Origin: Psychrobacter sp. LV10R520-6
GTDB lineage: Bacteria > Pseudomonadota > Gammaproteobacteria > Pseudomonadales > Moraxellaceae
Assembly: GCF_900182925.1 (NCBI RefSeq)
Contig: NZ_LT900024.1
Span: 2,976,001 to 3,040,000 of the forward strand
Reading direction: 5' to 3'
DNA length: 64,000 bases
A program made the translations under genes and the position numbers. The first letter of the stretch is position 1. Each line of letters starts with the position of its first letter. The notes under the pieces were generated by a model. The model made no database searches. It had not been told where the DNA came from and worked only from the letters and a program-made list of their open reading frames with translations. Of this stretch, positions 17,374 through 23,779 are shown piece by piece.

Positions 17374-18378
17374 ATGAAACTACGTATCTTGAAATCTGCA
17401 GTAACCAACCCTTGGTTTAATCTGGCGACAGAAGATTGGATATTCCAAGCGCTTGACCCTGATTCGCATACGCTATTCTTATGGCGTAATGATGAAACTG
17501 TGGTGGTTGGGCGCTCGCAAAATCCTTGGGTAGAATGTAAAACCGATAAAATGGAAGAAGACAATGTCTTTCTGGCTCGTCGTCAAAGTGGTGGTGGGGC
17601 CGTTTTTCATGATTTAGGCAATACCAACTTTACCTTTTTATCGCCCAAAAACGAGTACGATCAGGCAACTAACTTTACTATCATCGTAAATGCTCTGAAA
17701 AAACTGGGTATAGATGCCGAGCTGTCTGGCCGTAACGACATGCAAGTGGGCGATCGAAAAATATCAGGCAGCGCCTTCAAACATGCTGTTGATAGAAGCT
17801 TTCATCATGGTACTTTACTGGTAAACGCCGACATGAAAAAGCTTGGCGATTACCTCAATCCGCATCCGCTAAAATTGCAAGCAAAAGGTATCAAGTCCGT
17901 GCGCTCGCGTGTCGCTAACTTAGTTGAATTCAATGAAGATATTAATCACGAGATGCTGTCTGAAGCGATTATCGAGGCATTTTGTGAATATTATGGACAA
18001 AGAGTTGAAGTAGAAGCGTTAGATGAAGCCAGTCTCGCAAAGCAGCCTAATCTGAATAAATACTATCAGCAAATGTCAGACTGGGATTGGCGCTTCGGTA
18101 AAACTCCGGAGTTCTCGCATCGTATCGAAACTCGGTTTGATTGGGGAATGATCGATTTACATATGGATGTGAAGCAAGCGGTAATTGAAGAGGTGGTCAT
18201 ATTTTCTGATGCACTAAATGTTGAGTTGATTGACACTTTAAAAGACACGCTGACCGGAATTAAATACAACAAGAATGACGTTAGAGCCACGCTTGATGAA
18301 TTAAAGAAAGCGCAACCTGATTTAGCAGCGCAAGTTGACGATTTTTGCGGGTGGTTGATTGGTGAGATGGAAGGTTAG
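17374..18378 (+). CDS. lplA: Lipoate-protein ligase A
   Basis: Attaches free lipoate, through lipoyl-AMP, to lysines of lipoyl domains of 2-oxoacid dehydrogenases and GcvH. Motifs: FNLATEDWIF, LFLWRNDETVVVGRSQNPW, ARRQSGGGAVFHDLGNTNF (lipoate/ATP loop), GDRKISGSAFK with the catalytic Lys, HHGTLLVNAD. The C-terminal accessory domain is present (334 residues, the two-domain E. coli-like form). A clear SD (aaagagg) precedes the ATG. A degenerate second copy of its last about 40 codons follows the next gene (18933-19058). Confidence 0.93.
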   Translation: MKLRILKSAVTNPWFNLATEDWIFQALDPDSHTLFLWRNDETVVVGRSQNPWVECKTDKMEEDNVFLARRQSGGGAVFHDLGNTNFTFLSPKNEYDQATNFTIIVNALKKLGIDAELSGRNDMQVGDRKISGSAFKHAVDRSFHHGTLLVNADMKKLGDYLNPHPLKLQAKGIKSVRSRVANLVEFNEDINHEMLSEAIIEAFCEYYGQRVEVEALDEASLAKQPNLNKYYQQMSDWDWRFGKTPEFSHRIETRFDWGMIDLHMDVKQAVIEEVVIFSDALNVELIDTLKDTLTGIKYNKNDVRATLDELKKAQPDLAAQVDDFCGWLIGEMEG

Positions 18379-18471
18379 ATTTTGGGCTTTGTGTGTTATA
18401 AGAATGAAACATAATCCACAGTATCTGCAATTACTAAATTTTCCAAGAATTATAAATTATAAGGAGTTGTT

Positions 18472-18888
18472 ATGAAATACTTACATGCAATGATTAGAAC
18501 GAACAAACTAGAGGACACCTTAAACTTCTATTGTGAGCTTATGGGATTGAAACTTCTTAGGAAGAAGGACTCTGAATCAGGTAGATTTAGCTTATACTTT
18601 TTAGCGACCCATGAAGGTGCTCCAGAGATTGAGGTTACTCATAACTGGGACGAAGAAGAATATGCCAACGGAAACAACTTTGGGCACTTTGCCTTTAAAG
18701 TCGACAACATCTATGAGCAATGCGAAACATTTATGGAAGCTGGTGTCGATATATTAAGACCGCCTAGAGACGGGTATATGGCTTTCGTTAAAGACCCTAA
18801 CAATATCTCAATCGAACTGCTTCAAGATGGTGAGCGATTAGAGCCCATTGAACCTTGGATTTCGATGGAAAATATTGGTACATGGTAA
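18472..18888 (+). CDS. gloA: VOC-family glyoxalase I-like protein
   Basis: A 138-residue single-module vicinal-oxygen-chelate protein resembling lactoylglutathione lyase, which converts the methylglyoxal-glutathione hemithioacetal to S-lactoylglutathione. Metal ligands expected: His5 (LHAMIRT), Glu near IEVTHNW, His near NFGHFAFKV and Glu in NISIELLQDG, all present. The C-terminal tail (LEPIEPWISMENIGTW) is a little longer than in the minimal enzyme. SD aaggag. It lies between lplA and a decayed copy of the lplA 3' end, which suggests it entered or was rearranged with that segment. Another VOC function is possible. Confidence 0.85.
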   Translation: MKYLHAMIRTNKLEDTLNFYCELMGLKLLRKKDSESGRFSLYFLATHEGAPEIEVTHNWDEEEYANGNNFGHFAFKVDNIYEQCETFMEAGVDILRPPRDGYMAFVKDPNNISIELLQDGERLEPIEPWISMENIGTW

Positions 18889-18932
18889 ATAAAAAAGGTT
18901 AGATTAGCCTTATTAGACTCTCGCAGATAATG

Positions 18933-19058
18933 AAGACTAAATATAATCTACCGTTATATATCAAAGATAAGCTTGATGGTTTGGAGCAAGCGCAGCCTAA
19001 CTGAGCGTATCAAGTTGATAATTTTTGCGTGTGGATGATTGAAGAGATGGAGAGCTAG
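18933..19058 (+). pseudogene. Decayed copy of the lplA 3' end
   Basis: Read from aagctt at 18969 to TAG at 19056-19058 the frame gives KLDGLEQAQPN, stop, then AYQVDNFCVWMIEEMES, stop. The intact lplA ends with TLDELKKAQPDLAAQVDDFC and then GWLIGEMEG, stop. Spacing is nearly codon-for-codon; upstream similarity (TKYN versus IKYN) extends weakly to about 18933. One internal TGA and missing 5' part show it is a remnant of a duplication or of a second ligase gene. Confidence 0.75.
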
Positions 19059-19087
19059 CGGTTTTTATTTTTTCTCCGGAATAAAGT

Positions 19088-19132
19088 TTAGCGTAGGATG
19101 GAGTAAGTATAAAGTAAACCACCCTACACTAA
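19088..19132. repeat. Imperfect inverted repeat, gtaggatgg/ccaccctac type
   Basis: The arms around gcgtaggatgg and accaccctacact can pair over about 15 positions with mismatches. Related half-elements appear at 36093-36133 and 38526-38566, so it may be a decayed copy of a dispersed repeat. Confidence 0.4.
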
Positions 19133-19196
19133 CTTGTAGTTTCTAAAATTAGTGGAGAATTAAACGCAATAAAATTTTAAATAACTACACTCTGCT

Positions 19197-19826
19197 TTAT
19201 TTAACAAGTTCGTAAATAGCAGTTCCACACTCCAATAAGAACTGTACAGTGTCATCACAATCACTCTTAAATATAGGAATTTTCTCTAGAGTCTGTGGGT
19301 CTATGTCCGCTTCATGCACAATAGAGTTCCTTCTACTCACTATAAGTTTAAGCTTTGTTTTGGTATCTCTTTCACTACTAGAAAAACTTTGTGAAATAAT
19401 TTTCCATTTTTGACTTTCGAGACAAATATAGCTTAATCCATCAGATATCTTTGAAGGGTCTTGATACGAAATATACTTAAGCTTTTCAGATATAGCTTTC
19501 TCGAAAATATTAGCTTTAGTCATTACACCTGTATCGAACAGGTCATCACTTGCACTCAGTAGGTCGTGATAAAGCTCCATCTTCAAAGGCTCAGATGAGT
19601 ACTTTGGGGTAGAAGGACGTGAACCATTAAATATCTGTATAATTCCAATTTTGACTAAGTCATGGATTAGTTTATCAAGCGCACTTAAGGAGTAGACAAG
19701 TTGAGACCTAAGAATATCATCAAAGCATATAGGCACATTAATATTACTTTCTAAATACTCATAAACAGCTGATAGATTCTTAACTTCATCCAAATTCTTT
19801 TCGAAGTTCTTATAAGACCTATACAT
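19197..19826 (-). CDS. HEPN-domain protein, probable RNase (RiboL-PSP-like)
   Basis: A 209-residue, helix-rich protein. The motif SRRNSIVHEADIDP (RN-x3-H; Arg166, Asn167, His171) is the Rx4-6H catalytic signature of HEPN ribonucleases, and the surroundings look like the RiboL-PSP HEPN family. The start is the ATG at 19826, which overlaps the upstream ParA-like stop by 8 bp and has AAGG about 10 nt upstream; a TTG at 19865 gives a longer frame but without signal. Translational coupling to the ATPase is therefore likely. HEPN RNases typically act as toxins or abortive-infection effectors; function here is inferred, no antitoxin of MNT type is adjacent. Confidence 0.75.
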   Translation of the reverse strand: MYRSYKNFEKNLDEVKNLSAVYEYLESNINVPICFDDILRSQLVYSLSALDKLIHDLVKIGIIQIFNGSRPSTPKYSSEPLKMELYHDLLSASDDLFDTGVMTKANIFEKAISEKLKYISYQDPSKISDGLSYICLESQKWKIISQSFSSSERDTKTKLKLIVSRRNSIVHEADIDPQTLEKIPIFKSDCDDTVQFLLECGTAIYELVK

Positions 19827-20847
19827 GATCCAATAACCTTGTAAGATTTGTCTCAAGTCCTTCAAAAATAGTAAGTAAATGATCTCGTTTAGTAAGCATG
19901 GTCTCTAGTACTTTTCCACTATATTCTATTTCTTCATCTAATAAAGCAAAAACTGGTACCTGAGCTTTATTAGACTTGGGTAACAAGCCTTGAAAATCGG
20001 GAATTTCAGCTAAACAATATCCTTCGCTAATAAGATTTTCACTATAAAACCCATCTAATGTCATACCAGCATTAGATATAGAATCATAAAACTCATTAGA
20101 TATTTTTTGCTTAATCTCTGAAATGTTATCTCTATAAGGACGTGCTGCAAGACCGTTCCGAACATTAAACCTCTGAATTAAGCTACCTAGAAACTTGGGG
20201 TGAGATTCTGGCATAGGATAAGCTGAATCTTTAAACATATCCATAGAGGCTTGCTTCCACTGTACCCACTTTGGTAACACTCTAGTTAAGGTATCAATTG
20301 CCATGAGAGAAAATGGATCAGGGTTAGTAGGTACAATAAAAGAATCTGAGGATAAGAAAAGATTCTGATTAATTGCACTCAAACTTGGGTTTAAATCTAT
20401 TATGGTAATGTCTATAGAGTATTTTTCTTCGGTCAAGCGTAATAGTTCGGAAAAAGCGCCTGGTAGATTTTGTAAAGTAGCAATGGCATTATTAGAAGTT
20501 TGTGCAAATGTAAGAGCTGCGTCATACTCTGATAAATTAGCATGCCCAGCAAGCAAAAATAAGTTATCAGCTCTTTCAGGTGAGTAACAAGTTACAGCTT
20601 CTATAGGATGCGGTCTTCCTAAAAAAGCTGCACTTACGCCATCTTTAATGTTCTGAAGCTTAGTTTCATCCTTAATATAATACTTTTCGAATCCTTCACC
20701 TAATATTAGGCTTGTTAAATTACATTGTGGGTCAGCATCAACCACTAAAACATTAAGATTTTTACTTAGCAACCATCCTATGTTATACACAGAAGTGGTT
20801 TTACTAACACCTCCTTTATGATTAAATACAGCAATTCTTTTAGACAT
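19819..20847 (-). CDS. ParA/MinD-family ATPase, partner of a HEPN protein
   Basis: A 342-residue P-loop ATPase of the SIMIBI ParA type. It has the deviant Walker A NHKGGVSKTT (Lys11 and Lys16), Walker A' VVDADPQCNLT (Asp37) and Walker B-like ITIIDLNPSLS (Asp151). ParA proteins dimerise on ATP and often bind DNA or membranes. There is no parB or centromere-like iteron, so plasmid partition is unlikely; the gene is instead coupled to the HEPN gene. SD gagg 8 nt before the ATG. Low GC and position beside decayed DNA suggest acquisition. The C-terminal 100 residues are helical and of unknown role. Confidence 0.85.
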   Translation of the reverse strand: MSKRIAVFNHKGGVSKTTSVYNIGWLLSKNLNVLVVDADPQCNLTSLILGEGFEKYYIKDETKLQNIKDGVSAAFLGRPHPIEAVTCYSPERADNLFLLAGHANLSEYDAALTFAQTSNNAIATLQNLPGAFSELLRLTEEKYSIDITIIDLNPSLSAINQNLFLSSDSFIVPTNPDPFSLMAIDTLTRVLPKWVQWKQASMDMFKDSAYPMPESHPKFLGSLIQRFNVRNGLAARPYRDNISEIKQKISNEFYDSISNAGMTLDGFYSENLISEGYCLAEIPDFQGLLPKSNKAQVPVFALLDEEIEYSGKVLETMLTKRDHLLTIFEGLETNLTRLLDHV

Positions 20848-20858
20848 TATTTTTCCTC

Positions 20859-20919
20859 GTTAAGTTATTTTAATATTTATAATTATCTACTTTTAGTGAA
20901 TATAGCATATTAACTTAAC
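20859..20919 (-). promoter_or_regulatory. Inverted repeat bracketing the ParA/HEPN promoter region
   Basis: Perfect 9-bp arms gttaagtta (20859-20867) and taacttaac (20911-20919) are 43 bp apart in the AT-rich leader. The inner arm touches the Shine-Dalgarno sequence of the ParA-like gene. The arrangement fits an autoregulatory operator pair; promoter hexamers between the arms are AT-rich and not distinct. Confidence 0.45.
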
Positions 20920-20993
20920 CATAATATTTGTACTTTTATTTATGCGCTTTTCTAATGCAAACTACAAAACTATCATAAGGCTAATCTGCAGTA

Positions 20994-23779
<2,786 letters not shown>

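Follow-up and report, generated by a model that had tools for sequence, protein, structure and literature searches.

A translationally coupled ParA/Soj-type ATPase and HEPN gene pair in Psychrobacter: a conserved unit and candidate conflict module

Background

The closest described relative of the gene pair reported here is a predicted toxin-antitoxin system. Anantharaman et al. proposed in 2013 a dyad of a ParA/Soj ATPase, acting as the antitoxin, and a HEPN protein, acting as an RNase toxin; the accessible passages of that paper name the MAE_18760 HEPN family for the dyad, and place Ribo L-PSP-HEPN proteins either in fusions with endoRNase L-PSP or in an operon with ParB (PMC3710099). We describe a gene pair of this kind in a 64,000-nucleotide stretch of the Psychrobacter sp. 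LV10R520-6 genome (contig NZ_LT900024.1, positions 2,976,001 to 3,040,000; hereafter the window, in whose numbering all coordinates are given). An initial annotation of the window knew of no named system with this composition, which is corrected by the 2013 proposal: a system of this kind had already been predicted there (PMC3710099, in the passages accessible to us). ParA-type control of HEPN has thus far been a prediction. Bacteria of several phyla carry the pair, as does the phage Pf1. New here are the linkage statistics of this HEPN subfamily, its carriage by Pf1-type phages and effector swapping.

The parA of PMC12111858 is an ordinary plasmid parA, and ParA near abortive infection (Abi) genes is taken as a plasmid sign in PMC5379612. 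The pair is not described in the accessible passages of PMC7159879 and PMC5512222, and the DefensePredictor study (PMC13092281) includes HEPN systems, with ParA not found in its main text. Among the papers listed in literature searches, whose scope took in few preprints and no subscription journals, there was neither an experimental study of a ParA-HEPN pair nor a report that connects ParA to effectors of the RelA/SpoT or SIR2 type.

Results and discussion

The coupled gene pair and its proteins

Both genes lie on the minus strand. A ParA/Soj-type ATPase gene of 342 amino acids (aa) at 19819..20847, with the residues FNHKGGVSKTT, is followed by a gene for a HEPN-domain protein at 19197..19826, 209 aa from its ATG and a probable RNase effector. 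The two reading frames share 8 nt (19819..19826), in agreement with the 8-bp overlap and translational coupling proposed in the initial annotation. The HEPN start was assigned to the ATG at 19826 and not to a TTG upstream at 19865; the aligned start codon is ATG in 69 of 72 homologues.

The identities first proposed for the two proteins were borne out by profile and fold searches. The ATPase is a ParA/Soj protein by profile (AAA_31, 1.4e-27) with a ParA fold nearest to those of Soj and plasmid ParA. Its KGGVSKTT loop (residues 11-18, codons at 20794..20817, minus strand) is invariant from K11 to T17 among 42 aligned ParAs, as are D37, D39 and D151 (42/42); these conserved positions are the deviant Walker A, Walker A' and Walker B motifs of ParA proteins. 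KGGVSKT is present in 76 of 85 HEPN-paired ParAs. The downstream protein scores 40 bits against PF18735 (HEPN_RiboL-PSP; curated cut-off 28.4, E 5.2e-10) and has an all-helical HEPN fold. Its motif R166-N-S-I-V-H171 (19314..19331, minus strand), within RRNSIVHEAD encoded at 19334-19305, is conserved in aligned HEPN sequences: R166, N167, E172 and D174 are invariant in 61/61, and H171 is found in 60/61, with an R in the sole exception (P0118). A looser R-x4-H motif occurs in 84 of 85 dyad HEPNs, and the missing one is cut off by a contig end. This conservation is partly selected for, because the locus-search patterns used the same stretch.

Like the 2013 dyad, the window pair joins a ParA/Soj ATPase to a HEPN protein. 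The accessible passages name MAE_18760 (PMC3710099), while our protein matches PF18735 and has no match to PF18737 (MAE_28990/MAE_18760-like) at E <= 1. An MAE_18760 identity is thus unsupported at the level of Pfam families, and the sets may overlap. A PDB sequence search with the HEPN protein returned SspE alone (E 2), which was taken as chance.

For HEPN toxins with a nucleotidyltransferase antitoxin, structures have been solved and a mechanism shown. Unlike these HepT-MntA (HEPN-MNT, type VII) systems, the window has a P-loop ATPase gene in place of the MNT nucleotidyltransferase, and this gene comes first; membership in type VII was rejected, the partner being AAA_31/ParA and not MNT. GmrSD_N (DUF262) and HEPN_MAE_28990 pairs are alike in having an upstream gene of ~350 codons followed by a HEPN gene. 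Nine PF18737 matches in 8 of 369 genomes of the host's class each follow a frame of 341-388 codons (L310-L318), but the upstream partner is GmrSD_N, not ParA, in the two that were checked. In PADLOC 2.0.0 (2023), no model of a known anti-phage system matched both window proteins: the HEPN protein matched 0 families, and the ParA gave one 37-residue P-loop match (E 8.1e-4).

ParA/Soj partition ATPases share the fold and Walker motifs, but the window ParA has HEPN as its partner and no adjoining ParB, and the residue before its P-loop lysine is S instead of G, as in 74 of 81 HEPN-labelled tree rows. A partition variant, in which ParA positions or segregates DNA and HEPN is a non-catalytic adaptor replacing ParB, would suit the resemblance to Soj and plasmid ParA and the carriage of the pair on plasmids and Pf1 (see below). 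The HEPN-type motif retained in every dyad but the one cut short, the chromosomal position of the window dyad and the lack of ParB in its adjacent open reading frames (ORFs) argue against it, and we consider it very improbable. A Pfam scan of the adjacent ORFs, which found neither ParB nor MNT, upheld the initial annotation on this point; with parA adjoining only the HEPN and FMN oxidoreductase genes, membership in ParAB-parS was rejected.

Linkage across genomes

The ParA-HEPN dyad is a conserved unit. A HEPN search with an alignment of 41 sequences yielded 112 genome loci, and in 78 of the best 80 of these a ParA relative lies directly upstream of HEPN. In the two loci without ParA (L029 and L076), the HEPN match starts 169 and 73 bases from a contig end. 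The initial annotation had proposed a neighbourhood survey of whether the pair co-occurs across unrelated genomes, and by this count it does. Two outcomes that it named as refuting its reading, a failure of the profile searches and a lack of co-occurrence, were thus looked for and did not occur. ParA stands beside HEPN in all four phage and plasmid loci that were opened, and in 6 of 7 viral contigs found by the alignment search, two of which appear to repeat the two phages; the exception (L093) is a 22% match. A viral scan with a single HEPN query confirmed no locus. Hosts of the dyad, many of them metagenome-assembled genomes, belong to Pseudomonadota, Cyanobacteriota, Bacteroidota, Bacillota, Spirochaetota, Campylobacterota, Acidobacteriota, Actinomycetota and Poribacteria, among others.

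The spacing of the genes is also conserved. For 72 of 85 pairs it was possible to locate the HEPN start; the overlap is exactly 8 nt in 32 of these, and the spacing ranges from a 26 nt overlap to a 6 nt gap in 71, with the remaining pair at +195. Protein distances of ParA and HEPN are correlated over the 85 pairs (r = 0.88, with 0 of 1000 Mantel permutations as high), in part because shared ancestry contributes. ParA evolves more slowly, with a mean identity of 52% as against 41% for HEPN.

Pairing with ParA is confined to a part of the wider HEPN family. PF18735 has 28 matches in 23 of the 369 class genomes, and a dyad-family ParA was found near 4 of the 28 within the stretch checked, which extended ~1.5 kb to either side unless a contig ended sooner. 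Exactly these 4 reach the dyad HEPN profile at E < 1e-40, and ParA pairing therefore marks one HEPN clade. A fifth, weaker match to the dyad profile (L299, 3.9e-15) has no ParA in its stretch.

We take ParA to be the control part and the downstream gene to be the effector, because the motifs are intact, the coupling is tight and partners are interchanged in the wider family. In our judgement it is somewhat probable that the pair is a HEPN toxin module under ParA control and serves in conflict, as a toxin-antitoxin or abortive infection system, with inhibition as the likelier direction of control. Such a two-gene module would move horizontally. The HEPN effector would be a dimeric RNase whose unchecked activity would halt translation and growth, and the ATPase would be its dedicated control protein, translated in a coupled manner from the same mRNA. 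In an uninfected cell, the ATPase may hold HEPN inactive or sequestered, depending on the nucleotide it has bound and on its binding to DNA. If a phage or another invader altered this, or if the module were lost, HEPN would be freed, and the cell would stop growing or die. If ParA gates HEPN in this way, a plasmid-partition switch would have been reused for the control of cell suicide.

Control might instead be positive, with HEPN inactive alone and ParA sensing phage DNA or protein and assembling the active RNase, which would make the pair a defence system and not a toxin-antitoxin system. Activation by a partner is known for some SIR2 effectors. Mutual dependence of this kind would fit the restriction of ParA-less HEPN to contig ends in the best 80 of the 112 loci, and also the truncation of L119, the lone HEPN-less ParA in the HEPN-paired branch described below. 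Inhibition and activation are indistinguishable from sequence, and the 2013 prediction, as far as its accessible passages go, favours an antitoxin (PMC3710099); we regard positive control as unlikely.

The surroundings of the dyad were compared with more distant genes for matches to defence models. From 37 loci, 148 near and 148 far proteins were drawn, with genes taken as the longest open frame; L079, L080, L081, L083, L085 and L086 were left out of both sets and two long proteins out of the near set, so that 122 and 124 were used. At a PADLOC threshold of E <= 1e-15, the 122 near proteins matched 95 families and the 124 far proteins 13, with at most 2 members per listed family; the number of matching proteins is unreadable from these family counts, because many models overlap.

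Phage and plasmid carriers

Two matches were obtained in the phage collection, Pseudomonas phage WX-TY and the inovirus Pf1. WX-TY (10.3 kb) has zot-like and single-stranded DNA-binding genes, from which it appears to be an inovirus; both of its dyad genes are annotated as hypothetical and overlap by 8 nt. The ParA of Pf1 is Orf317, annotated as a 'putative regulatory protein' that is 'similar to Soj'. Beside Orf317 there is an unannotated 175-aa HEPN ORF (L004, 9741-10268) with RRNSIVHEAD present and a C-terminus shorter than those of its relatives. A 2020 survey of Pf accessory genes discusses parDE, and partition or Soj is absent from its accessible passages (PMC7549136). In the plasmid collection, HEPN matched 13 records (12 from B. 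glumae and 1 from B. arboris), 9 of them typed as conjugative; all 13 of these Burkholderia records match ParA too, and two were opened.

Carriage by plasmids and filamentous phages is also what plain addiction would predict. ParA would then neutralise HEPN, and loss of the element would kill or stall the cell with no phage-specific trigger, stabilising plasmids, filamentous phages and islands. Within the genus, only 2 of 105 genomes, the window's included, have a ParA match at E <= 1e-30, and the two copies lie at different places, as expected for a mobile selfish module; in the Psychrobacter genome G080 the dyad ParA is ~310 kb away from lplA. Two observations lean the other way, toward defence: 3 of 10 proteins occupying the same slot in relatives match PADLOC models, and the SIR2 partners of distant ParAs score on models of ThsA, Dsr and LmuA. 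Plain addiction seems to us rather unlikely, and it overlaps with the ParA-controlled conflict module that we favour, whose benefit would be either defence or addiction.

A variable slot beside lplA

The dyad lies in an inserted segment. To its left are an intact lplA (17374..18378, plus strand; LplA-B_cat 3.8e-62, Lip_prot_lig_C 6.2e-21) and a glyoxalase-family gene (18472..18888, plus strand; PF00903, 7.1e-20), and to its right an FMN/FAD oxidoreductase gene (20994..23237, minus strand; PF00724, 4.1e-80). In the nearest relative by lplA (G092, 90%), the dyad flanks are separated by 128 bp, compared with 2.03 kb in the window; the flanks align to G092 (L215) and delimit an insert of ~2.03 kb at 18966..20995 comprising the dyad and a decayed lplA tail. 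This tail (18958..19058, plus strand) is a second copy of the lplA 3' end. It shares 75.2% identity with the corresponding end of G092 lplA across 101 bp, and 76.5% with the intact lplA of the window across 81 bp. The decayed lplA fragment reported in the initial annotation is thus present, though lplA itself is intact. The second tail probably arrived with the insert, since the insert starts with a decayed tail 75% like that of G092.

The low-GC pocket reported around the pair stood in part. Guanine-cytosine (GC) content is 31-36% over 19000-21000, 43-49% in the right flank (21000-23250) and 38-44% in the left flank (17500-19000), so the contrast is strong toward one flank only, the right.

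Of 95 same-genus genomes with an lplA match, 66 were used to survey the slot, and lplA and the FMN oxidoreductase gene were both present in 57 of these loci. The contents between these two genes differ widely (L215-L281). The three PADLOC matches among the 10 representative slot proteins include, in one Psychrobacter genome, PtuA (Septu-type, 1.8e-194) with a PDC-M01B neighbour and, in another, a DUF2971/PDC-S31 protein. Pfam matched 5 of the same 10, including PAAR (standing for a 23-ORF cluster), Ntox44 and a transglutaminase-like protein, and 4 of the 10 had no match in either. The slot gathers conflict-type genes among others, which fits a defence role without proving one. We count the slot with its Septu-type PtuA, the dyad-less G092 and the mobile carriage of the pair in favour of a conflict module. 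The slot of one relative (L216) encodes a 456-aa protein with RSNFVHG, named by neither Pfam nor PADLOC.

No regulatory signal could be demonstrated in the region upstream of parA (20848..20993, minus strand) by promoter and inverted-repeat tests against random sequences. This region has one promoter-like match, scoring 9/12, and the scanned stretch has 6 matches against a shuffle mean of 8.1. An inverted repeat at 20859-20876/20902-20919 was equalled in 34 of 200 sequences simulated with a Markov model; upstream of the Psychrobacter sp. Ps6 copy, nothing comparable was found (best 12/18). The bracketed promoter proposed in the initial annotation was rejected, as was an operator: the promoter matches fall below the shuffle mean, and the repeat does not exceed simulation and is not kept in Ps6.

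Relatives of the ATPase and their partners

ParA relatives were also collected without regard to HEPN. Seven of the 369 class genomes have ParA at E <= 1e-30, 4 with an adjoining dyad HEPN (one with an in-frame stop) and the others beside a RelA/SpoT-like gene, an unassigned gene and nothing recognised. In 299 genomes of the phylum, ParA at this threshold occurs in 29, with 31 matches of which 30 loci were fetched: 3 have HEPN, 3 a RelA/SpoT-like gene and 3 SIR2_2, while 1 is a broken ParA beside a RelA/SpoT match, 1 has an unassigned gene and 19 have no recognised partner, as judged by three queries and by eye, with two ending soon after ParA. Among the best 80 of 97 ParA relatives on viral contigs, 20 have a dyad HEPN, 1 a RelA/SpoT protein, 2 a different protein lacking a Pfam match and 57 nothing recognised; 53 of the 57 fall below 37% identity with the ParA of the window, and the set includes several near-copies.

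A tree was built from 116 of the 167 ParAs by a quick method without bootstrap, with near-copies and short sequences omitted. One of its branches (SH-aLRT 99) has 83 rows, and all but one of these, L119, are ParAs paired with HEPN (82). Sampling of this branch mostly by HEPN favours such a picture. L119 and L154, the latter omitted for its length, are truncated ParAs without HEPN; of the weak rows, L022 matches ParA in two pieces, and L097 and L352 have an in-frame stop. A separate branch of the same tree takes in 25 of 30 partnerless ParAs, whose sources are phages, viral contigs and a plasmid.

Enzymes of other types take the HEPN position beside distant ParAs. SIR2 and toxSAS enzymes are known elsewhere as growth-stopping effectors. 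Three ParA-SIR2_2 loci (L344, L348 and L350; Pfam SIR2_2 1.2e-27, 5.7e-27 and 6.1e-19; gaps of -4, +1 and -4) are a possible ParA-SIR2 module. Five intact pairs (L099, L183, L330, L349 and L351) have a RelA/SpoT-like gene directly downstream, confirmed as RelA_SpoT by Pfam in L183, L349 and L351 and by sequence match in the other two; in a sixth locus (G480, L352), it is the ParA that has the in-frame stop. A reverse search with the RelA/SpoT protein matched 5 of 299 genomes, 4 with an adjoining ParA, one of them broken. These partners resemble SIR2 (ThsA, Dsr) and RelA/SpoT effectors, which we presume to be of the toxSAS type, Pfam giving RelA_SpoT only; they hold the coupled downstream position beside distant ParAs and not in the window. 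A second tree, built from 67 ParAs, places the SIR2-paired ones in one branch (98) and the RelA/SpoT-paired ones in two. Both share 25-30% identity with the window ParA and are thus its kin only at the level of a broad family, most of whose members lack a recognised effector. Pairing with SIR2 and RelA/SpoT enzymes also speaks against the partition variant introduced above.

It is conceivable, though doubtful, that ParA-type ATPases form a general control unit of suicide systems, gating an exchangeable HEPN RNase, SIR2-like NADase or RelA/SpoT-type synthetase, with the partnerless copies of temperate phages, in places beside a repressor, acting as antidotes or decoys. If ParA gates HEPN, the SIR2 and RelA/SpoT pairs would open that control to tests by effector swap. 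A common upstream gene, annotated as a CI-like repressor in phage ST160, is present at 8 of 27 partnerless loci, and the partnerless phage ParAs could be antidotes.

Some further loci were noted. No Pfam match was found for the partners in L120 (310 aa, with an RNDAIH motif read by eye) and L122 (171 aa). In G471 (L098/L328), only 3 nt separate a distant ParA gene from the next one, whose 244-aa product resembles a cyclase by eye (FLDVLGFS); with no match in Pfam or PADLOC, it was not counted as an effector. Temperate phages carry partnerless ParAs of the wider family, as in Salmonella phages ST160 (L101) and SE1 (L105) and most viral ParA loci. On one viral contig (L163), the gene 203 nt beyond a partnerless ParA encodes a 169-aa protein that we take, by eye, to resemble the Panacea/DUF4065 antitoxin domain.
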